Assembly (NCBI RefSeq): GCF_025950085.1
Contig: NZ_JAPDDS010000004.1
Span: forward strand, 124,001-188,000
Reading direction: 5' to 3'
Length of the DNA stretch: 64,000 bases
From: Luteolibacter flavescens
GTDB taxonomy: Bacteria; Verrucomicrobiota; Verrucomicrobiia; Verrucomicrobiales; Akkermansiaceae
Part shown: positions 20,732-31,701 of the stretch, piece by piece
Position numbering within the stretch: position 1 is the stretch's first letter
Layout of the letters: each line of letters opens with the position of its first letter
Program-made: the position numbers and the translations under genes
The notes under the pieces: model-generated
The model's database searches: none
What the model saw: the letters and a program-made list of their open reading frames with translations, nothing else
Told to the model about the DNA's origin: nothing

Positions 20732-20863
20732 TTTCGGAAGACTGAAATATCCAGCTCCTTCCCAAATCAAAGTGGGAAATCCGGTCTTCGCAGTGTGCTT
20801 GGGGCTGAATCGTCTCAATTGGAAGATTGGCGAGGGCGGATCGATCTATCAGTGTTTTGGGGA

Positions 20864-22156
20864 ATGGGCTTTGGAACGCTGCGATCTTCCCTTGAGCGGA
20901 ATCAATTGCTCTTCACGGTCTTCGCGTCCCTGGCGGCATTCTCGTGTTATTATTGCATGTATGCCTTCCGGCGGCCCTTCGCCGCGGCGGGATATGTGGA
21001 TGCGCCGCTGCAGGTGGCGATCGCGGGCCGCATCATCGAGGCGAAGACGCTTTTCCTCATCGCGCAGGTCTTCGGCTACTGCGTGTCGAAGTTCGCGGGG
21101 GTGAAGGTCTGCTCGGAGCTGCCGCGCGCGCGGCTGGGTCTGGCACTGGTGGCCTGCATCGTGACCTCTTGGCTGGCCCTGCTCGCTTTCGCAGTGCTAC
21201 CCGCGGGCTGGAAGCCGGTGGCGCTCTTCCTGAATGGCATGCCGCTCGGCGTGGTGTGGGGTCTGGTGGTGCGATATCTGGAAGGGCGGAAGGTCTCCGA
21301 GTTGCTGCTCGCGGCGCTCTCCTGCTCCTACATCCTGGCCAGCGGCGAGGTGAAGCGCGTGGGAGCGTGGCTGCTGGAAAAGGGCGTGGACGAGTACTGG
21401 ATGCCCTTTGCCACCGGGGCGATGTTCGTGCTGCCCTTCGTGATATCGGTCGGCCTGCTTTCGCTGCTGCCGCCGCCGTCCGCGGAGGACGAGATGCTAC
21501 GGGCGAAGCGCCAGGTGATGGGGCGGGGCGAGCGGCTGGCCTTTGCGCGGCGCTTCCTGCCCGGGCTGGTCATCCTCTGTGTCTTCTACCTTTTCCTCAC
21601 CGCCTACCGCGACTTCCGCGACAGCTACCAGGCGGACCTCTTCGTCGAAATGGGCATCATGGACGCGGCGGCATTTTCCCGCACGGAGCGGCCCGTGGCC
21701 TTCGGCGTGATGATCCTGCTGGCCCTCGCCTTCCTGGTGAAGGGCGCACGCCGCGGCCTGGCCACGGTGTATCTGCTGATGATGGCCGGCATGGTGGTGC
21801 TCGGCGGGTCCACCATGCTTTTCAGCGCCGGACTGATCGGCGGCGAGACGTGGATGATGGTGAGCGGCTTCGGAGCCTATCTCACCTACGTCCCCTTTGG
21901 CAGCGTGCTCTTCGACCGCATCATCGCCGCCACCCGGTTCACGGGGACGGCGGTGTTTGCGATCTATCTGGCGGACGCGCTCGGCTACTCCGGATCGGTC
22001 GGCATGATGATCTACCGCGATATCTTCGCGGGAGAGATCAGCCGGCTGGAGTTCTTCCGTGACTTCAGCCTGTGGCTGGCCATGGGCGGCCTGCCCCTGC
22101 TTTTCACGGCCTCGGTGTATTTCCTCGGCCGTGCGAAGCAGGCACCCGGCATGTGA
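20864..22156 (+). CDS. DUF5690/MFS-like membrane transporter
   Basis: The roughly 430-residue membrane protein has about 11-12 hydrophobic segments. An early CYYCMYAFRRPF block after the first membrane helix is characteristic of DUF5690, an MFS-related group with a glycerol-3-phosphate-permease-like start. I chose the ATG at 20864; a GTG at 20795 is possible but adds 23 polar residues. A CRP-like palindrome lies upstream. The substrate is unknown. Confidence 0.75.
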   Translation: MGFGTLRSSLERNQLLFTVFASLAAFSCYYCMYAFRRPFAAAGYVDAPLQVAIAGRIIEAKTLFLIAQVFGYCVSKFAGVKVCSELPRARLGLALVACIVTSWLALLAFAVLPAGWKPVALFLNGMPLGVVWGLVVRYLEGRKVSELLLAALSCSYILASGEVKRVGAWLLEKGVDEYWMPFATGAMFVLPFVISVGLLSLLPPPSAEDEMLRAKRQVMGRGERLAFARRFLPGLVILCVFYLFLTAYRDFRDSYQADLFVEMGIMDAAAFSRTERPVAFGVMILLALAFLVKGARRGLATVYLLMMAGMVVLGGSTMLFSAGLIGGETWMMVSGFGAYLTYVPFGSVLFDRIIAATRFTGTAVFAIYLADALGYSGSVGMMIYRDIFAGEISRLEFFRDFSLWLAMGGLPLLFTASVYFLGRAKQAPGM

Positions 22157-22162
22157 CGGGGG

Positions 22163-24925
22163 TCAGTCCCCGGTCACGCGGAAGAAGCACTTGGGATCCG
22201 CGATGCGGTCCACCGGCACCAGCTCCTCATGGCTGGCACCGCTGGCGGTCACGCTGCGCACGTCCTCCCATCCGTCGAGGCGGGTGCTCTTCTGGATCTT
22301 GTAGGTCTTCCCGGACTCGGACTTCCAGCGCAGGCGCATCTGGTTTCCCTCAAGCTCGGCCTGCTCGAACTCAAGGGGAGCTTTTCCCTGCACCGTGAAG
22401 GTGACGCGGTTGGAAACCTCGGTGTAGGAGTCGTTCGTGAACATCGCCACGAAGTATTTTCCCGGGGCCAGGTCCGGCAGTTGGAAGGTCACGCTGCCGC
22501 TGGTGGCACCGTTGAAGTAGAGATACGAGGTGAGCACGTTCACGCCGGGGATCTCCCCGTCCTTGAAGATGCCGATCCAGTCCTTCGGGATGCCCGGGCC
22601 ATTGCTGAAGTGGACGGTGAAGTCGCTGCCCTGCTGGACCTGTGCGGCCTCCATGCTGACCGTGGAAATCTGCGAGCCAACGGAGAAAGGCACGCGCGTG
22701 GCGATCTCCTGATACTGGTCATTCACCATGAAGGCGGCGTAGTAGTAGCCCTTCGCGAGTCCGGGGAAGTCACGGAACCCGGACGCCTCCGCGGCATACT
22801 TCCAGCTCACGGACGGCGTCGGGCCGGGATTGATGCCGACGCGGTAGATGCCGATCCAGTCCTTCTCTCCCGTGGGTGCGCCGGAGAAATTGATGCGCAC
22901 CGTCTCGCCCTCGTCGTAGGCTTCGCTGCCCGGCGTCATCGTCACCATGTTCCCCACGTAGATGGGCACGCGCGGGGCGATCTCCGTGTAGCTGTCCGCG
23001 GAGAAGAAGGCGGCGAACCACTCGCCGACGGGCAGGTTGTAGGTGAAGTTCAGCGTGCCGTTCCGGATCGCCGCGGCGGGTGCGGTGCGGGTGCCATTCA
23101 GGTAGAACCACGACGGGGATGCCCCCGCGCGCGGCGTGGTGCCCTTCGGGAAGAATCCGATCCAGTCGCGGGTGCTGCCGGTGCCGTTTTCAAAGGCGAC
23201 CGGGATGTCCTCGTTCGGCGGATAGACGGACTTCTGAAGTGCGATCTTCGGGTCGGACGGAACGCTGCCCGTGACAGTGAAGGTGATGGCGGACGACCAC
23301 GCGGACCACAGGGTATTCGCATCCCGGTGGCGGACGCGCGCGTGGTAGGTGCCGTCCGGCAGGCCCGAGGCGGGGATGGTGTAGCGCAGGATATCCAGGC
23401 CCGCGTGGGTGTCCACCGGCTCATAGAGCGGCGAGCCGGAGTCGCCGTAGAAGTTCTCCACGTCGCGGATGCGGTCGATCTTGAGATTCGAGAATCCGGC
23501 GTCGGCGGCGACCTGGAACCAGGTGCTGTTCATCGCCTCGCCGCTCGTCGTCTGGTAGGCCGTGCTGGCCAGTTCCACCGGCAGCGTGACGGGGGCGGCG
23601 AAGGTATTCGTCAGCGATGGCTTCGCGGGCGTGGCGGTGATGCCACGCTTGCGCGTGAAGTGGTCCACCAGTCGGCTGTTGTAGGACCAGCGCGTCGCGG
23701 TGGGGAAGCGGATGTTCGCCTCGGAGAAACAGCGCACGTCCATGGTGCGCGCATCCAGGTCGAACTCGACGAGCTGCCACGTCCAGTGGGCGACGGTCTT
23801 CTGCACGTCGTCGTAGTCCGCCTCGTTCGACTGGCCCCAGTACTGGTCCCACGCGCTGCCGCCGGAGATGATGTGGTAAACGGGCCACTGCCTCGTCTGG
23901 CCGCGGGCGTAGAGGTGGTGGTGCGCGCCGATGTTCAGCACGTGCTTCTGCGTCTGCGCGAGGATGGGCATCGCGGTGTTCCGCATCCAGGTGGAGATGT
24001 CGCCGATGTACTGCTCCGCCTGGTAGGGCTTGTGGCAGAGGCTGATCATCCAGTCGACATTCGCCGCCGAGTCCGACGCGGTCACGATGTCCTGCACCCA
24101 CGTCGTCTGCGCGGTGGTGATGTGCTCGCTGGACGTGTGGACGAAGGCGATATTCGCAAGCTGGTAGGCGTAGTAGACTTCGGGATCCGGGCTGCTGACG
24201 CCGGCGCAGGTCAGGTCGTCGTAGCGGAAGATCGCCTTGTAGTTTGCGAGGCCGGGATCGCTGTAGGTCTCGTGGTTCCCGATCGTGGTCATGATCGGGA
24301 TGTTCGGCGAGATCCAGCCGCAGAACTTGAAGTGAAGGTGACGGTAGTGCTCCAGCGTGCCGACGTCGACCTGGTCGCCGGGCATCAGCACCAGGTCGAT
24401 GGCTTCCTCGATCGGGACCGAGTAGAGGTCCTCGATCTTCTTCTTCGCGCGCTCCACCAGTCGCTCGTAGCGGCGTTGTGCCGGGTCGATGACCTGGTTG
24501 TCGCCGATGATCAGCACGCGGAATTTCCCGGTGCCGGTGCCGATGGCCTTCGGCGTGCGGAAGCGGAAGACCTCCGAGGTGACATTCTCGGTACGAGCCT
24601 TGTAGTAGTAGTAGGTGTCCGGCTGGAGTCCCGTGAGCCGCACGCAGTGGTAGGTGTAGTTCGTCCCCATCCGCGTCGGCGCCGAGGTGGCGGTCCGCGT
24701 CAGCGCGTCGGCGGCGGTGCCGAAGTCCACATGCGTCTGGGCGTCGGCATTCGTCCACCACGATACCCAAATGGAGTCCGGGCGCGGGGTCTGGAGGTAG
24801 GGCCGGAGCCCGGCGGGGGTGCCTTGGAAATCATAGTCGATCGCACCAAGGGCCCAGCTCGGGCGGAAGACAAAGGCGCCGGTGGCACCGAATCCAATCA
24901 GGCGCAGGAACTGCGAGCGGTTCAT
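22163..24925 (-). CDS. Secreted purple-acid-phosphatase-like metallophosphoesterase with repeated Ig-like modules
   Basis: The ~920-residue protein begins with an export signal (RSQFLRLIGFGATGAFVF...), Tat-like but with one Arg. Next come an N-terminal fibronectin-like PAP domain (~35..140) and a metallophosphatase core with IIGDNQ, MPGDQVD, GNHETYSD, SLCHKPY and GAHHHLYARG. A fibronectin-like part follows, then three tandem ~100-residue modules each with a DWIG(I/F) strand and a Y(Y/F)xAxF strand. The C-terminal domain ends FFRVTGD. The downstream modules recur once in the neighbour 24961..26796. It is likely an outer-surface phosphatase; the substrate is unknown. Confidence 0.85.
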   Translation of the reverse strand: MNRSQFLRLIGFGATGAFVFRPSWALGAIDYDFQGTPAGLRPYLQTPRPDSIWVSWWTNADAQTHVDFGTAADALTRTATSAPTRMGTNYTYHCVRLTGLQPDTYYYYKARTENVTSEVFRFRTPKAIGTGTGKFRVLIIGDNQVIDPAQRRYERLVERAKKKIEDLYSVPIEEAIDLVLMPGDQVDVGTLEHYRHLHFKFCGWISPNIPIMTTIGNHETYSDPGLANYKAIFRYDDLTCAGVSSPDPEVYYAYQLANIAFVHTSSEHITTAQTTWVQDIVTASDSAANVDWMISLCHKPYQAEQYIGDISTWMRNTAMPILAQTQKHVLNIGAHHHLYARGQTRQWPVYHIISGGSAWDQYWGQSNEADYDDVQKTVAHWTWQLVEFDLDARTMDVRCFSEANIRFPTATRWSYNSRLVDHFTRKRGITATPAKPSLTNTFAAPVTLPVELASTAYQTTSGEAMNSTWFQVAADAGFSNLKIDRIRDVENFYGDSGSPLYEPVDTHAGLDILRYTIPASGLPDGTYHARVRHRDANTLWSAWSSAITFTVTGSVPSDPKIALQKSVYPPNEDIPVAFENGTGSTRDWIGFFPKGTTPRAGASPSWFYLNGTRTAPAAAIRNGTLNFTYNLPVGEWFAAFFSADSYTEIAPRVPIYVGNMVTMTPGSEAYDEGETVRINFSGAPTGEKDWIGIYRVGINPGPTPSVSWKYAAEASGFRDFPGLAKGYYYAAFMVNDQYQEIATRVPFSVGSQISTVSMEAAQVQQGSDFTVHFSNGPGIPKDWIGIFKDGEIPGVNVLTSYLYFNGATSGSVTFQLPDLAPGKYFVAMFTNDSYTEVSNRVTFTVQGKAPLEFEQAELEGNQMRLRWKSESGKTYKIQKSTRLDGWEDVRSVTASGASHEELVPVDRIADPKCFFRVTGD

Positions 24926-24960
24926 CACGGAATAGTCAGGAGTAGGGTAAGGGGGCGATC

Positions 24961-26796
24961 TCAGGGTTGGGGGACGACTTCGTAGATCTTGTAGAAGCGG
25001 CGTGCGGGGACGGGTGTGGGGAGGTCCTCGGAGAAGGTCGTGGTGTCATCGCCTTCCGATGGGACGGCATTGCCGACCTTTTCCCAGGCGACGAGCGGAT
25101 CGCCCGCGAGGGTGGCCGAGGCGTAGACGTCGTATTGGACGTCCGCCTTGGAATCCCACGTGATGGTGAACCGCTCGCCATTCACGGGGTCGGTGGTGCG
25201 GGCCACGGAGCGCACGGCGATGGGGCCGTCCGGCACCACCGGTGCTGTCACGGTGAAGGGGATGGGGCCTTGCTCGACGACGTAGTTCCCATCGACGAAG
25301 AGCACCGCGTAGTAGTTCCCCGCGGGCATGGTGAAGCTCAGCGTGCCGGAGGTGTGGTTGCCGCCGGTATTCTGCGTGCCATTGAGATAGTTCCACTGCA
25401 CGGAGTACTCGTTCGGTGCGCCGGGTGTGTTGTTCTGGGCGTAGATGCCGACCCACGATGCGGCATTTCCGCCGGTGCCGCTCCAGGTCGCGATGGTAGG
25501 CTCGCCGGCCACGTAGGCCTGCTTGTCGATGGAGAAGGCGGCGCTGTTTCCGGTGGCGCGGAGCACGCGGCGGGTCGTCGCGGTGGCGCTGCCGTTGTTC
25601 ACGTTGATCGTGTAAACGGTCGAGGCCGAGGGCACCGTGAAGGTGCGCGAGCCGATGCCCGAGTCAGGATCGGTGTCCGCGGTGACATCCGTGGTGGTGG
25701 TGCCGTCGGAGATGGTGACCGTCGCGCCGACGGGCAGGACATTCCAATCCAGCGTGACCTCATGGGCCGGGGCGAGGGCGATGCGCCGGTCCGCGGTGAA
25801 GGAGAAGACGCGGCCGTTCAGGATGGTGACCTGCCGCGTGGCACCGCCGTCCAGCGTGAGCGTGTAGGTGGTGTTTGCCGTGGGATTCACGGTCGTCGAG
25901 CCATAGCCCGTCTGCGTGTCGGTCAGCGGCAGCACGTTCACCGCGCCCGTGCCGTCATTCAGCGTGAGCGTCTCCACCGCTCCGGCATTGAGGATGTCCC
26001 AGGAGAGCGTGATGGGGTGGCCGTCCACCACGTCCACGTCGGAGTAGAAGCCATTCAGCGACGCGCTCGGCCGGTCGCTGGAGAAGGTGATGGTGTCCAT
26101 CATCCCGTAGTACTGCGAGCCGGTGGTGTCCGGGCCGGTGACGATGCCGGTGACGGGGGAGTACTTCGTCTGGTCGGTGCCGCCGAGGCGGATGCCGATC
26201 TTCTTGCCCGCTTCCGCCGCGGTGGCGGTGAAGGTCACGGACACATCGGTCAGGCCGTTGTTTCCGGTGACCACCTGGATGATGTGGTTGTTCGGAATGG
26301 GGCCGCCGTTTGCCACGGACTGCGCGGCGAATTCATCGGAGAACCAGTGGTCCATCGCGACCGGGGTGCCATCGGCGGTGAGGCCGAGCGACCACATGAT
26401 CCGGGCATTCCGGCAGTTCGCATAGCCTGCTGCGGAGAAGATCTGCGCGCTGACGGTGTAGGTCGCGCCCGCGACGAAGGTGCTGCCGCTGCCGGTGAGG
26501 TCCTGGCGCACCGGCGTGGAATTGAAGGTGGAAGCGAAGGTGCGGTTCGTCGGAAAGGCGCCCCCGGCGAAGTAGGTGGTGTTCCAGCCGAAGCCTCCGT
26601 CATTGCCGCCGCGGACGGTGCCGCCGATGCCTGGCGGGGTCGCGTTGCTCGCCCAGTAGGCGGCGTTGTTGTCGGTGCCGTTGGCCGTGTCGAAGCCGCC
26701 GTTTTGCAACTCGGCGGCAGGGAGCAGGGCGGTGGCGAGCAGACCGGCGACCGCCATTGAAGCATGGCGGAGCAGGGAGAGATTCCGGGTTTTCAT
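24961..26796 (-). CDS. Secreted multidomain protein with DWIG-like module
   Basis: The 611-residue protein has a signal peptide (SLLRHASMAVAGLLATALLPAAE) from the ATG at 26796; the upstream open frame is unlike a leader. The N-terminal ~190 residues resemble a carbohydrate-binding jelly-roll (LQNGGFD..., TYTVSAQIFSA). Two PKD/Ig-like repeats follow (TLTLDGGATRQVT and VYTINVNNGSAT). Then comes one ASWVGIY...YYAVLF module like those in the phosphatase, and a C-terminal domain ending RRFYKIYEV. It is 32 bp upstream of the phosphatase gene, so the two form one operon. Function unknown; possibly substrate binding for the phosphatase. Confidence 0.78.
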   Translation of the reverse strand: MKTRNLSLLRHASMAVAGLLATALLPAAELQNGGFDTANGTDNNAAYWASNATPPGIGGTVRGGNDGGFGWNTTYFAGGAFPTNRTFASTFNSTPVRQDLTGSGSTFVAGATYTVSAQIFSAAGYANCRNARIMWSLGLTADGTPVAMDHWFSDEFAAQSVANGGPIPNNHIIQVVTGNNGLTDVSVTFTATAAEAGKKIGIRLGGTDQTKYSPVTGIVTGPDTTGSQYYGMMDTITFSSDRPSASLNGFYSDVDVVDGHPITLSWDILNAGAVETLTLNDGTGAVNVLPLTDTQTGYGSTTVNPTANTTYTLTLDGGATRQVTILNGRVFSFTADRRIALAPAHEVTLDWNVLPVGATVTISDGTTTTDVTADTDPDSGIGSRTFTVPSASTVYTINVNNGSATATTRRVLRATGNSAAFSIDKQAYVAGEPTIATWSGTGGNAASWVGIYAQNNTPGAPNEYSVQWNYLNGTQNTGGNHTSGTLSFTMPAGNYYAVLFVDGNYVVEQGPIPFTVTAPVVPDGPIAVRSVARTTDPVNGERFTITWDSKADVQYDVYASATLAGDPLVAWEKVGNAVPSEGDDTTTFSEDLPTPVPARRFYKIYEVVPQP

Positions 26797-26962
26797 TGGT
26801 GAGGTCTTGGGAGTTCGCATGCCGGCTGCAGACGCGGTGAAAGGGACCGGTAGCCGACGCTGATCACATCGCGGGAAGCGCCGCCTTGGCGAAAGTGGCA
26901 TTATCGACGGCAGCGGGAGCAAATCCGCCGAGCCACGTGGCGGGCCGTGCGGGGAGGCCACG

Positions 26963-27017: not shown

Positions 27018-28898
27018 ATGAATCGTAACTTCCGCAAGCTCGTGGGGATCCGCTTTCCGCAATGGTCCTCCTATGGTCCGCGCACGATGGAGGGCGTGGT
27101 GGAGTCGATGCGGCAGCACGAGACGTGGCGGATCGCGACGGAAAACGACTCCTACGGCGAGATGGAGGCGGTGAAGATCGACGAGCACTGGCATGGCGAC
27201 GGGCTGGTGCTCTTCCGCGCCACGGAGCGCGAGCTGGCCAGCTACCGCGAGCGCGGCACGGCGGTGGTGCTGACCAGCACGGAGGGCCCGGACCTGGGCT
27301 ACCCGCGCGTGGTGCCGGACAATCACGAGATCGGCCGGCTCGCAGCGCACCACCTCATCGAGTGCCAGCTCCCGCACTTCGCCTTCCTCGCGCGCGGCGA
27401 GACCTTCTACCGCGAGGAGCAATACGCTCCCGGCCTGCGGGTCTATGCGCGGCAGCGGCTGAAGGGCTTCCGCGCGGGCCTGCAGGAATACCGGCACGAG
27501 CCGGTGGTGCACTATCTGCGCGGCAGGCCGCTGTGGGAGTCCCACGGCTGGCGCGAGGTGCAGACGGAGGTGATGGCCTTTCTGGAAAGCCTGCCGGAGC
27601 CCTGCGGGCTCTTTGTCGCGGACGATTCACTGGCCGCGGTGGTGCTGCGTGCGGCGGACATGCTGGGCCGCCAGGTGCCGGAGCAGCTTGCGGTGATCGG
27701 CTATGGCGATGATGCGGCGTATTGCTTCGCCACCTTCCCCGCGCTGAGCAGCATCGAGCACCCGGCGCGCGAGATCGGCCGGCAGGCGGCGGAACTGCTG
27801 CGGCGGCAGATGGCGGGCGAGGCGGTGGAGCCCGGCTCGCTCATCGTCCCGGTCAGCCGGGTAATCACGCGCGAGTCCAGCGACATGCTGGCCATCACCG
27901 ACCCGGACATCCGCGAGCTGGTGCGCTACATCCGCCTGCGGGCCCCGCACGAGGCCGTGCGCGTGGCCGAGCTGACGGACCTGACCCCGCTTTCCATGAC
28001 CACGATCAAGGAGCGCTTCGCCGCGGCCCTGGGCCACGGGCCGAAGGAGGAGATCCAGCGCGTGCGGGCACGGCACCTGAAGCACCTGCTGGGAGACCTG
28101 TCGCTCACCCTGGCGGAAATCGCGCGCCGCATGCAATTCGGCTCCGCGCACGAGCTGAGCCGCTTCTTCCTCGCGGAGACCGGCCAGCGCCCGAGCGACT
28201 TCCGCGCCAGCCTGAGCGCCTCTGCCGCCCATGTGGCAGAGCGGGCGGTGGTCTTCGACATGGATGGCACGCTCTTCGATACGGAGCCGGTTTACTGCGA
28301 GGCCTACCGCACGGCCTTTGCCCGGCAGGGTGGCGAGCTGACGAAGGACGAGTATTTCCGCGAGTTGGTCGGCCGGTCGAATGAAGACATCGAGGAATAC
28401 CTCGCGGCGAAGGCCCCGCGGGGATTCGACCTCGCGGGCTTCCGCAGCGGCTGGCGTGAGGACTGGCGGGTGCTGGTGAATGAGGAGCCGCCGGTGCCGA
28501 TGCCCGGCGTGGCGGCGCTGCTGGAGGAAATCCTGGAAGCCGGGGTGCCGCTGGCGCTGGCCAGCTCCAGCGACCGCGAGGACATCGATCTCTGCCTCCA
28601 GGCGTCCGGGCTCGACCGCTACTTTCCGATCCGGGCGTCCGGGGACGAGGTGGCGGCAGGGAAGCCCGCGCCGGATCTCTACCTGCTGGCCTGCCGACGG
28701 CTGGGCATCGGCCCCACGCGTTGTCTGGCCATCGAGGACAGCCGTCACGGGGTGGCCGCCGCGCTCTCCGCCGGGCTGGCGGTGGCGCAGGTGCTGCCAA
28801 ACGGGGGCACCGCCCGCGAGGGCGTGCGGGGAGTCGCCAGCCTGACCGAACTCCTCGGCGGCGAGTGGCAGACAATGGTGCCGAGAGATAAGTCGTAA
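27018..28898 (+). CDS. XylR/LacI-AraC type regulator fused to HAD phosphatase
   Basis: The 626-residue protein starts at the ATG at 27018, since MNRNFRKLVGIRFPQWSSYG is the usual XylR-type start. Residues 1..~275 form a periplasmic-binding-like sensor (DNHEIGRLAAHHL, VIGYGDDAAYCF). Residues ~290..400 hold a double AraC helix-turn-helix (SLTLAEIARRMQFGSAHELSRFF). From ~408 a complete HAD hydrolase of the beta-phosphoglucomutase/CbbY type follows: FDMDGTLFDTE, LASSSD, GKPAPD and IEDSRHG. All HAD catalytic residues are present. The frame is continuous with no repeat at the junction. The fusion suggests sugar-phosphate sensing or removal linked to transcription; the target genes are unknown. Confidence 0.88.
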   Translation: MNRNFRKLVGIRFPQWSSYGPRTMEGVVESMRQHETWRIATENDSYGEMEAVKIDEHWHGDGLVLFRATERELASYRERGTAVVLTSTEGPDLGYPRVVPDNHEIGRLAAHHLIECQLPHFAFLARGETFYREEQYAPGLRVYARQRLKGFRAGLQEYRHEPVVHYLRGRPLWESHGWREVQTEVMAFLESLPEPCGLFVADDSLAAVVLRAADMLGRQVPEQLAVIGYGDDAAYCFATFPALSSIEHPAREIGRQAAELLRRQMAGEAVEPGSLIVPVSRVITRESSDMLAITDPDIRELVRYIRLRAPHEAVRVAELTDLTPLSMTTIKERFAAALGHGPKEEIQRVRARHLKHLLGDLSLTLAEIARRMQFGSAHELSRFFLAETGQRPSDFRASLSASAAHVAERAVVFDMDGTLFDTEPVYCEAYRTAFARQGGELTKDEYFRELVGRSNEDIEEYLAAKAPRGFDLAGFRSGWREDWRVLVNEEPPVPMPGVAALLEEILEAGVPLALASSSDREDIDLCLQASGLDRYFPIRASGDEVAAGKPAPDLYLLACRRLGIGPTRCLAIEDSRHGVAAALSAGLAVAQVLPNGGTAREGVRGVASLTELLGGEWQTMVPRDKS

Positions 28899-28985: not shown

Positions 28986-30272
28986 ATGTCAGCCGCAGAC
29001 CGGGGAGCTAGCCGGGTATTGATCATTGGTGGAGGCTTCGCAGGCCTGGAGTGTGCAATGAAGCTGGCGGGAGACTCCCGCTTCGCCGTGACGCTGGTGG
29101 ATCGGACGAACCATCACCTTTTCCAACCGCTTCTGTATCAAGTGGCGACCGCCTCGCTGGCCGCGCCGGATATCGCCCGCTCGATCCGCCAGATCCTCGC
29201 CGACGCTCCGAATGTCACGGTGCTGATGGACGAGATCAAGACGCTCGACCCGGTGGCAAAGACTGCCGACGGAGCCTCGGGCACGCACTACGAATACGAC
29301 TACCTGCTGCTCGCGGCAGGAGCGCGGACGTCGTTCTTCGGGAAATCCGAGTGGGCGCAGCACACGCTGGGGCTGAAATCGCTGGCCGATGCGCAGGGCG
29401 TCCGCCGCTCGGTCCTCGCCAATCTGGAGATGGCGGAGCTGACCACCGATGAGGAATACCGCAAGCGCCTGATGACCGTGGCGATCGTGGGTGGCGGGCC
29501 TACCGGCGTCGAGCTGGCCGGGGCCTTCGCGGACCTGATCCACCGCACCCTGAAGTCGAATTTCCGCCGCATCGATACCTCGAAGCTCCGCGTGGTGCTC
29601 ATCGAGGGCTCCACCCGCGTGCTCGAGGTCTTCGACGAGGACCAGAGCGAATACACCCGCCGCCGGCTGACGAAGCTGGGCGTGGAGGTGTGGACCAGCA
29701 TGCGCGTGGACGACGTGCAGCATGGCTGCCTGCACTTCGCGGACGGCACGAAGCTGGAGTCCGAGGCGATCATCTGGGCTGCGGGCGTGGAGGCAAATCC
29801 GCTGACCGCGATGCTGGGCGTGCCGATGGCCGACCGCGCCGGGCGCGTGACGCCGAATCTGGATCTCTCCCTCCCGGGCCTGCCGCACGTCTTCGTGGCG
29901 GGCGATCTGGTCCGGATGAAGGACGGGGACGACAAGCCGGTGCCCGGGCTCGCCCCCGCCGCCAGCCAGATGGGCCGCCACGTGGCGAACCTGCTGAAGG
30001 GTCAGGCCGAGGGACGCCCGCGGGACCATTTCTACTACTACGACAAGGGCTTCATGGCCATCATCGGCAAGAACCACGCCGTGGTGAAGGCCGGGAAGAT
30101 GAAGATGAAGGGCTTCATCGCGTGGTGCGCGTGGCTTTTCATCCACATCGCCTTCCTCATCGGCTTCCGCAACCGCCTGTCGGTGCTGCTGGGATGGGCC
30201 TTCGCCTACCTGCGGGACAATCCGCAGGCGCGCATCATCGTCCACCCGCCGGGGATCACCCCGAAGGGCTGA
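28986..30272 (+). CDS. ndh: Type II NADH dehydrogenase (NDH-2)
   Basis: The 428-residue FAD enzyme passes electrons from NADH to quinone without pumping protons. The FAD site GGGFAGLE is at residues ~15..22, and the NHHLFQPLLYQVA block is typical. The second nucleotide site reads VAIVGGGPTGVELAG, and the second FAD block VFVAGDL is followed by a QMGRHVA block. A hydrophobic C-terminal stretch (AWCAWLFIHIAFLIGF) probably anchors it to the membrane. The CRP-like site just upstream suggests control by redox or energy state. Confidence 0.93.
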   Translation: MSAADRGASRVLIIGGGFAGLECAMKLAGDSRFAVTLVDRTNHHLFQPLLYQVATASLAAPDIARSIRQILADAPNVTVLMDEIKTLDPVAKTADGASGTHYEYDYLLLAAGARTSFFGKSEWAQHTLGLKSLADAQGVRRSVLANLEMAELTTDEEYRKRLMTVAIVGGGPTGVELAGAFADLIHRTLKSNFRRIDTSKLRVVLIEGSTRVLEVFDEDQSEYTRRRLTKLGVEVWTSMRVDDVQHGCLHFADGTKLESEAIIWAAGVEANPLTAMLGVPMADRAGRVTPNLDLSLPGLPHVFVAGDLVRMKDGDDKPVPGLAPAASQMGRHVANLLKGQAEGRPRDHFYYYDKGFMAIIGKNHAVVKAGKMKMKGFIAWCAWLFIHIAFLIGFRNRLSVLLGWAFAYLRDNPQARIIVHPPGITPKG

Positions 30273-30393
30273 GCGGCGGCGTTGATGGCCTCCCGATTGC
30301 GGATCTCGCTGGAGTAGTTCGGGTTCCGATGCTTTTTTGTGTCTGCGAACAAACGAATCCGGTGACCGGCGGCGTTTACACCCATACTTCTCC

Positions 30394-31701
30394 ATGAGCT
30401 CGAAAAACAGCAACCTGACCCTTGTCGGAGCCATCGTCGTGGCCAGTGCCGGTGCCTTCGTGGCCGGTCGCATGACCGCCCCGGACGCCGCCGAAATCGC
30501 CGCGGCTGAGAACGGCAGCGGCAGCCTGTCGAGCAAGACCTCGTCGCGCGGCGGGCTGGGAGGGGAGTCGGATGCAGGCTCTCCGCGTCGCAGCCTGGCG
30601 GAGCGTGCGGCCTCGGCGAAGGGCGGATCCAACCTCTCCGGAGAGGAAGCCCGCGCGAAGATGGAGGCGCTGATGCGCACCACCGACCCGATCGAGCGCA
30701 GCAAGGCATGGCTGGAATTCGTCAATTCCGTGACCCCGGGCGAATTTGAGTCCGTGGTCGCTTCCTTCCGCTCGCTCGGCATGACGGAGAGCCGCATGAC
30801 GGAGTATTCCATGCTGCTCAGCGCGTGGGCGAAGTCGGACCCGCTGCAGGCGCTGGAGTATGCGAAGGCGAATACCGGCAACCGCTTCGCCCGCAATACC
30901 ATCCTCACCACCTGGGCTGCCTCCGATCCGGAAGCCGCGATCCGCTGGGCCGAGCAGAACCACACCGCCCAGGAAGGCGAGGGGAATCCGTGGATGATCG
31001 GCGTGATCCAGGGTCTCGCCGCGAATGACCCGGTGCGGGCCTCGCAGCTCCTCGCGGGCATGAATCTCTCCGAAGAGCGCGGCGAAGCGCTCGGCATCAT
31101 GATCCCGACCATCCTTTCCCAAGGGCCCGACGCCGCGAAGGCCTGGGCTACCGCGATGACCGATGAGTCGCTGAGGGAAGGTGCTATCTCCCGCATTGCC
31201 GACGCCCTCGCGGCGAAGGACCCGGCAGGCACCGCCGCCTGGCTGATGCAAAATCCGGGCGAAGCCGCCGACCGCACGATGGATGACGTGATCACCACGT
31301 GGATGGAGCAGGACAAGGACTCCGCCGTGGCCTACTACAAGGGCCTGCCCGCCGGTGACATGCGCAGCAATGCCCTGCGCGGCGTGGCGAACAGCATGGC
31401 GATGCAAGACCCGCGCGCCGCCGCCGACTTCCTCGACGCGAATGCCGGAGACGCGAACGACCGCGTTTACGAACAATTCGTCTGGCACTCCTTTGGCAAT
31501 GCGCCGGAGATCGCCGTGAACTACATCGGCAAGGTTTCCAACGCGAACCAGCAGGAGCGGATGTACGGCCGCATGCTCGATGGCTGGCTCCGCCGCGACT
31601 ACAATGCCGCCTCGCAGTGGATCAGCCAGAATTCCCTGCCGCAGAACGTCTCCGACCGCGTCCAGCGCCGCATGCAGGAAATGCAGCAGCGCCAGCAGTG
31701 A
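30394..31701 (+). CDS. Anchored helical-repeat protein of unknown function
   Basis: The 435-residue protein starts at the ATG at 30394. It has an N-terminal hydrophobic anchor (TLVGAIVVASAGAFVAG) and a low-complexity Ser/Gly-rich linker to ~70. Repeated helical pairs follow in which DPxxAxxWA-type blocks recur (for example DPLQALEYA, DPEAAIRWA, DPVRASQLL, DPAGTAAWL, DPRAAADFL). The pattern is HEAT/TPR-like and suits a protein-protein scaffold at the membrane. The C-terminal tail is Gln/Met-rich. Such proteins are common in Verrucomicrobia and no function is known to me. Confidence 0.7.
   Translation: MSSKNSNLTLVGAIVVASAGAFVAGRMTAPDAAEIAAAENGSGSLSSKTSSRGGLGGESDAGSPRRSLAERAASAKGGSNLSGEEARAKMEALMRTTDPIERSKAWLEFVNSVTPGEFESVVASFRSLGMTESRMTEYSMLLSAWAKSDPLQALEYAKANTGNRFARNTILTTWAASDPEAAIRWAEQNHTAQEGEGNPWMIGVIQGLAANDPVRASQLLAGMNLSEERGEALGIMIPTILSQGPDAAKAWATAMTDESLREGAISRIADALAAKDPAGTAAWLMQNPGEAADRTMDDVITTWMEQDKDSAVAYYKGLPAGDMRSNALRGVANSMAMQDPRAAADFLDANAGDANDRVYEQFVWHSFGNAPEIAVNYIGKVSNANQQERMYGRMLDGWLRRDYNAASQWISQNSLPQNVSDRVQRRMQEMQQRQQ

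Follow-up and report, generated by a model that had tools for sequence, protein, structure and literature searches.

A Fused Regulator and Phosphatase in One Open Frame

The window, i.e., the whole 64,000-nucleotide stretch of Luteolibacter flavescens DNA that was analyzed, contains a single unbroken frame from ATG to TAA that encodes a 626-aa protein combining a LacI/XylR-like ligand-binding part, an AraC-type HTH, and a HAD phosphatase domain (Table 1). Pfam matches were over cut-off for all three: Peripla_BP_3 (PF13377, residues 111–288, 1.3e-26), HTH_18 (PF12833, residues 324–397, 8.4e-13), which lies C-terminal to the sensor, and Hydrolase/HAD (PF00702, residues 409–586, 1.9e-33). A periplasmic-binding-protein-like sensor placed N-terminal to an AraC-type HTH is the XylR-type layout, and E. 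coli XylR was both the best PDB sequence match of residues 11–396 (phmmer, 2.1e-27) and the top PDB fold match of an AlphaFold2 model of the fusion (4fe4; Foldseek, 1.5e-19, 26% identity). An earlier note, made from the letters of this DNA without database searches, had described a sensor, an AraC-type HTH, and a HAD domain in one frame and had assigned the regulator to the XylR type. The domain search that it proposed agrees with this build, and E. coli XylR is indeed the closest solved relative over sensor and HTH together. The fusion is confirmed as one real, continuous frame.

Table 1. Positions in the window of the genes, protein parts, and candidate regulatory site described in the text.
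Feature	Positions	Strand	Basis
DUF5690 MFS transporter, OPA-like by fold	20795..22156	+	PF18943 1.5e-119; AF2 model
Purple acid phosphatase (PAP), SKICH-like part	22163..24928	−	PF16656, PF00149, PF17751 over cut-off
Divergent gene, secreted-looking protein	24961..26820	−	Start 26820 or 26796 by eye; relatives beside fusion
Candidate operator, two 17-bp boxes as direct repeat, period 21 bp	26895..26932	+	EM motif; divergent promoter
Regulator–phosphatase fusion gene	27018..28898	+	Single open frame; Pfam domains; fused orthologs in G007, G009
LacI/XylR-like ligand-binding part, residues 6–288	27033..27881	+	Peripla_BP_3; E. coli XylR match; AF2 model
AraC-type HTH, residues 324–397	27987..28208	+	HTH_18 8.4e-13
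Short variable linker, residues 398–408	28209..28241	+	Alignment; pLDDT
HAD phosphatase domain, class IA, beta-PGM-like, residues 409–592	28242..28793	+	PF00702 1.9e-33; TIGR02009 below cut-off

The linker between HTH and HAD domain is gapped and unconserved among the aligned fused proteins, and its residues 401–406 had pLDDT values <50 in the AlphaFold2 model. Given this low-confidence segment and a pTM of 0.61 (mean pLDDT 88.3), the placement of the HAD domain in the model is of low confidence. The frame could alternatively begin at an earlier TTG (26886); the ATG is the likelier start, because the candidate operator occupies the sequence in between (26895–26932).

On the same strand, 87 bp past the fusion stop, lies an NDH-2-type NADH dehydrogenase gene (28986–30272), which among the loci compared adjoins the fusion elsewhere only in genomes G007 and G009. 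A 454-aa frame at 30337–31701 (+) appeared repetitive by eye and had no Pfam match at 0.01.

Distribution and History of the Fusion

Fused orthologs, defined by a match across both HTH and HAD, were found in 11 of 260 family genomes, eight of them from the genus of the window and three (G170, G213, and G238) from a second genus. Those of G007 and G009 are 88% and 86% identical to the protein of the window over nearly the full length, and within the genus identity falls to 57% (G014). The genus was represented by 18 genomes: eight carry the full fusion, including that of the window itself, G005 (61% complete) encodes a regulator that lacks the HAD tail, and in the other nine no match exceeds 35% identity. 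One further fusion, from another family (G677), was recovered in a sample of 386 genomes of the order; in a sample of 387 genomes of the phylum, five fusions matched at 1e-35, all of them already known. Both samples overlap the family set. The family search scored the best 8 candidates per genome and the order and phylum searches the best 5, and divergent fusions may thus have been missed.

This survey, which the earlier note had suggested together with a check of the junction for a frameshift or stop, found the junction near 28240 open in 12 separate genomes of two families, three of them single-contig assemblies (G010, G170, and G213). Unfused relatives of the regulator do exist, as would be expected if an assembly error or frameshift had joined two genes in the window, but this explanation is refuted by fused orthologs in one frame in 12 genomes, and we give it practically no weight.

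In the regulator trees, the unfused G005 protein paired with the fused protein of G238, and a second G213 copy lacking the HAD tail fell beside the fused group. Of the standalone HADs, those of G025 and G673 branched outside the fused group in the HAD trees, and the G177 HAD branched within it. A single fused clade was rejected, trees with unfused members inside being better (p-AU 0.044 for the regulator and 0.029 for the HAD part). The second regulator tree left out two long-branch regulators (G051 and G073), and the second HAD tree left out 23 of 34 standalone HAD rows and included a new G673 row. The simplest reading of these trees would be an old fusion followed by loss of the tail in G005 and possibly others and by one separation (G177); several independent fusions could be the alternative history. 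Because the tail is absent from G005 and from the second G213 copy, it is dispensable.

Spread on plasmids was also considered and rejected: 990 plasmid records matched parts of the protein and none covered 80% of it in one place. A scan of genome contigs gave a single weak locus (34% identity), and with respect to a defense role there was no PADLOC match at 0.001. A candidate for the split ancestor of the fusion, found in the phylum sample in G575 (L112:3912–8005), was rejected as well. The match there spans two separate genes, a HAD gene lying 3 bp behind an AraC regulator of the cupin type, with a GH3 glycosidase gene next, and this AraC/HAD pairing is taken as unrelated. In G673 (L220:629–3282), a HAD closely related to the fused one stands alone, next to a frame that looked MFS-like by eye and gave no DUF5690 match.

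Catalytic Motifs and Family Placement of the HAD Domain

All four motifs of class IA HAD phosphatases (DxD, S/T, K, and ED) are present as D414 and D416, S516, K549, and E573 and D574, and these residues together with D421 are invariant in all 11 aligned fused proteins. The D-x-D pair is also retained, as judged by eye, in the distant G677 protein. The complete set of catalytic motifs described by the earlier note therefore stands, and the absence of HAD residues from most relatives, which it said would refute its reading, was not observed: they are present in all 11 aligned proteins. Values of dN/dS for the HAD part were 0.06–0.16 in five of six pairs, dS being infinite in the sixth, and are close to those of the sensor (0.05–0.12); although rough, with synonymous sites close to saturation, they are signs of purifying selection on the HAD domain. 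The domain thus looks intact as a phosphatase and is predicted to be catalytically active.

The closest PDB sequence match of the HAD part was 3kbb (Thermotoga TM1254), with CbbY and beta-phosphoglucomutases also near. The fused domain lies near the beta-PGM-like group but scored 114 bits against TIGR02009 (beta-PGM subfamily) and 77.9 bits against TIGR01990 (beta-phosphoglucomutase), under the curated cut-offs of 153.35 and 189.4, respectively. The standalone HAD of G177 reached 138 bits against TIGR02009. Among the 25 NCBIfam families shown, no named enzyme, beta-PGM included, reached its cut-off with the fused domain.

Phosphoesterase Genes Beside the Fusion

The protein encoded divergently from the fusion partly resembles SKICH-bearing phosphoesterases, and its relatives adjoin the fusion in G007, G009, G014, and G015 at 44–49%; its sole Pfam match was sub-cut-off in a scan that began a few codons inside the likely start. 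The PAP contains short motifs that we take to be metal-binding. PAP genes were found within the fetched stretches of 10 of the 11 fused genes (absent at G238) and near four of nine unfused regulators of the same clade. Other neighbors in the clade include Exo_endo_phos enzymes with SKICH-like or Ig-like domains and TPR sulfotransferases. LamG (lectin-fold) proteins are encoded divergently from the fusion in G003, G015, and G010, a BNR-repeat gene follows it in G014, and a sulfatase follows the standalone HAD of G177. The neighbors called PEP-CTERM-like were just under cut-off or were judged by eye, as were signal peptides and start codons.

Secreted-looking phosphoesterases with SKICH matches occur at L107:4503–6836, L108:4336–6669, and 22163–24928 of the window, and two of these also have an Exo_endo_phos domain. 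The pairing of SKICH with Exo_endo_phos parallels that of eukaryotic inositol 5-phosphatases; inositol phosphates are a candidate substrate of the SKICH-bearing phosphoesterases.

A DUF5690 Transporter Linked to Phosphonate Genes

Convergent with the PAP gene of the window is a gene for a DUF5690 protein, a family with 29 matches in 25 of 97 genomes, our own included. These 29 loci include two G006 fragments and the loci that supplied reference proteins. Of the 29, 19 contain one or more relatives of phosphonate-catabolism proteins, L150 by a weak aldehyde dehydrogenase match only, and two (L150 and L162) contain a phosphocholine-specific phospholipase C. The reference proteins were over the NCBIfam cut-off for TIGR01422, TIGR03351, TIGR02335, and TIGR03364, and under it for TIGR03250, TIGR03366, and TIGR03276. 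XylR-type regulators scoring >150 bits are found in 10 of the 29 loci, four of which are fusion loci (an estimate of 2.5e-7 for this co-occurrence rests on an assumed rate), and in G027 and G038 unfused XylR-type regulators stand divergently beside DUF5690 and phosphonate genes. Within the genus, four of the eight genomes with the fusion have DUF5690, and in G213 it adjoins the fusion; it was not found in the fused genomes G003, G007, G010, and G015 and is thus not an obligatory partner of the fusion. In two genomes, DUF5690 adjoins a standalone ortholog of the fused HAD: in G177 the two genes share a strand and are separated by 71 bp, and in G025 they are convergent. Of all observations, this pairing hints most strongly that the HAD works in a phosphoester or phosphonate pathway and not in plain sugar use.

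The structural model of DUF5690 was nearest to human G6PT/SLC37A4 (Z 33.9, 17% identity), which came first in both comparisons, with other MFS families following within 2 Z units from 32.3 down. An alignment of 27 DUF5690 proteins shows no variation at R59, K84, R272, and R275, and members of the OPA family bind phosphate with such Arg and Lys residues. Searched against PDB sequences, alone or as a profile, DUF5690 had no significant match, and the family is not named in the literature searched. Overall, DUF5690 resembles an OPA-type carrier of organophosphates or phosphonates.

The sugar sensing envisaged by the earlier note could fit these neighborhoods in part. Conserved glycosidase neighbors, which it had proposed to look for, did not appear: among the part of the neighbors that was scanned, no glycosidase or sugar kinase family was found at the fused loci, and secreted phosphoesterases recur instead. 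The phosphoesterase and phosphonate genes point away from a sugar, whereas the LamG, BNR-repeat, TPR sulfotransferase, and sulfatase neighbors could reflect a glycan setting. Since the recurring neighbors are secreted phosphoesterases, joined by DUF5690 in five fused genomes, a plain sugar is a less likely signal than a phosphoester or phosphonate, or the product of one.

A Candidate Operator With a 21-bp Period

Several fused genes are preceded by a recognizable direct repeat. An EM search of 20 promoters for two tied 17-bp boxes with a 21-bp period gave a summed score of 402, vs. 242–279 for 12 shuffled promoter sets, the real run being started from a chosen seed and the shuffles from six random seeds each. 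In a PWM scan, the site of the window, itself in the training set, scored 33.7, and the next matches in the window scored 13.7 and 13.1. The PWM, built from nine promoters, had no match of ≥13 bits in 384 kb of random DNA. Outside the training set, PWM sites were located upstream of PAP (G007, G009, G003, G005, and G213), the secreted protein (G007 and G009), Exo_endo_phos genes (G170 and G213), and PEP-CTERM-like genes (G015 and G010), with weaker sites at L050, L113, L150, L153, L155, and L165. Fourteen of 17 untrained sites, compared with one another, end 28–42 bp before start codons that were picked among in-frame starts; behind them are PAP, Exo_endo_phos, and PEP-CTERM-like genes and one unnamed secreted-looking gene. 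The nearest starts to the other three (the secreted-protein promoters of G007 and G009 and a G003 pair) are at 25–106 bp. The curve of operator spacing is circular, as the sites had been chosen at spacing 21.

A consensus search of 12 genomes returned 45 matches, vs. 2 for the reversed pattern, and none in G005. One pattern match that is near letter-identical in five genomes (GTCGATTTCGGCGG...) is probably coding sequence, so that the 45 include some false ones. A second strong operator-like site in our own genome (L213:5072–5109; C4:385073–385106) lies upstream of a short secreted-looking gene without a Pfam match, which is followed by a TPR sulfotransferase, and the same gene pair with an operator-like site is also found in G003. 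A second Exo_endo_phos gene in G009, G015, G003, and G007 is a further candidate target. No convincing operator precedes the fusion in G003, G015, or G238 (scores of 5.5, 12.3, and 14.0, respectively), and no site of ≥15 was found at the fetched loci of fused G238 or of unfused G041, G025, G239, G264, G265, and G185. We consider the repeat a candidate operator to which the HTH of the fusion may bind.

Proposed Function and Alternative Explanations

We propose, with a probability of about one half, that the fusion is a one-component XylR-type regulator that controls phosphoester scavenging and carries its own cytosolic HAD phosphatase. The computed observations behind this proposal are that the fusion exists and is conserved, that its motif residues are intact and its HAD domain shows signs of purifying selection, that phosphoesterase genes are linked to it, and that an operator-like site recurs. 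The sensor would bind a small signal from the phosphoester-scavenging pathway, and the AraC-type HTH would bind the direct repeat before the target genes, which would be those for PAP, an Exo_endo_phos enzyme, and accompanying secreted proteins; in many genomes the regulator's own gene would be among them. The HAD domain would dephosphorylate a small cytosolic phosphate ester, most simply one entering by the scavenging route; this step would finish the pathway and might lower the regulator's own inducer. DNA binding, ligand, substrate, catalytic activity, import by DUF5690, and feedback are inferred.

A more speculative form of this proposal, which we regard as rather doubtful, is that the regulator times itself. 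The HAD domain would destroy the imported phosphoester that induces the same chain, and DUF5690 would represent a novel family of organophosphate/organophosphonate transporters that works for systems of this kind. The inducer would switch on the secreted phosphoesterases through the direct-repeat operator, and induction would last only as long as import outran the regulator's own enzyme. If both halves do act on one compound, the protein would be a minimal single-chain feedback circuit in which the enzyme dose equals the regulator dose. The loci also yield an operator that can be tested, a set of phosphoesterase genes that may form a regulon, and a probable class of substrates for DUF5690.

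The two halves may instead have been joined for co-expression only, pairing a phosphoesterase regulator with a general cytosolic phosphatase that is required simultaneously and involving no inducer feedback. This possibility, tentative but worth keeping in mind, is consistent with the short and unconserved linker, with the loss of the tail in G005 and the second G213 copy, and with the standalone HADs beside DUF5690 in G177 and G025; the retention of both parts in one chain by 12 genomes of two families argues against it. A sensor that binds a free sugar, as in E. coli XylR, with a HAD domain that acts on the phosphate of that sugar, seems unlikely to us. The regulator part is closest to the solved E. 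coli XylR, the HAD part lies near the beta-PGM-like group, whose members often act on sugar phosphates, and the LamG and BNR-repeat genes beside the fusion would suit such a role. However, the most regular neighbors are phosphoesterases, phosphonate genes stand beside several sister regulators, and the neighbors scanned at fused loci lack glycosidase and sugar kinase families. A C-terminal module next to the HTH could conceivably tune DNA binding, and the HAD domain might have become a non-enzymatic sensing or dimerizing part of the regulator; the motif residues, unchanged in 11 of 11 aligned proteins and, for the D-x-D pair, by eye even in G677, make this very improbable.

Comparison With Known Systems

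E. coli XylR (4fe4 and 4fe7), which controls xylose genes, resembles the fusion in having a LacI-like sensor followed by an AraC-type HTH, but lacks a HAD domain, and the fusion differs further in adjoining phosphoesterase genes. The OPA transporters human G6PT/SLC37A4 (9w1r and 9ugx) and GlpT (1pw4) are the closest known systems to the DUF5690 model by fold, with other MFS families close behind and no significant sequence match in the PDB.

In trigger enzymes such as NadR, PutA, BirA, and Ada, a single chain both regulates genes and catalyzes a reaction. By its architecture, the fusion would be a candidate member of this group. To our knowledge, no member couples a LacI/AraC-type regulator with a HAD phosphatase, and the literature matches listed included nothing relevant to a XylR–HAD fusion, to HAD trigger enzymes, or to regulators that carry a HAD phosphatase domain; we claim novelty relative to that literature, the family models, and the PDB. 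TM1254 (3kbb), CbbY (4uar), and the beta-phosphoglucomutases (1lvh and 4g9b) have the HAD class IA fold and motifs in common with the fused domain but, unlike it, are stand-alone enzymes. In the mannitol-1-phosphate dehydrogenase/phosphatase MtlD (7oct), a related HAD domain is also fused to another function, the partner being a dehydrogenase in MtlD and a transcription factor here.
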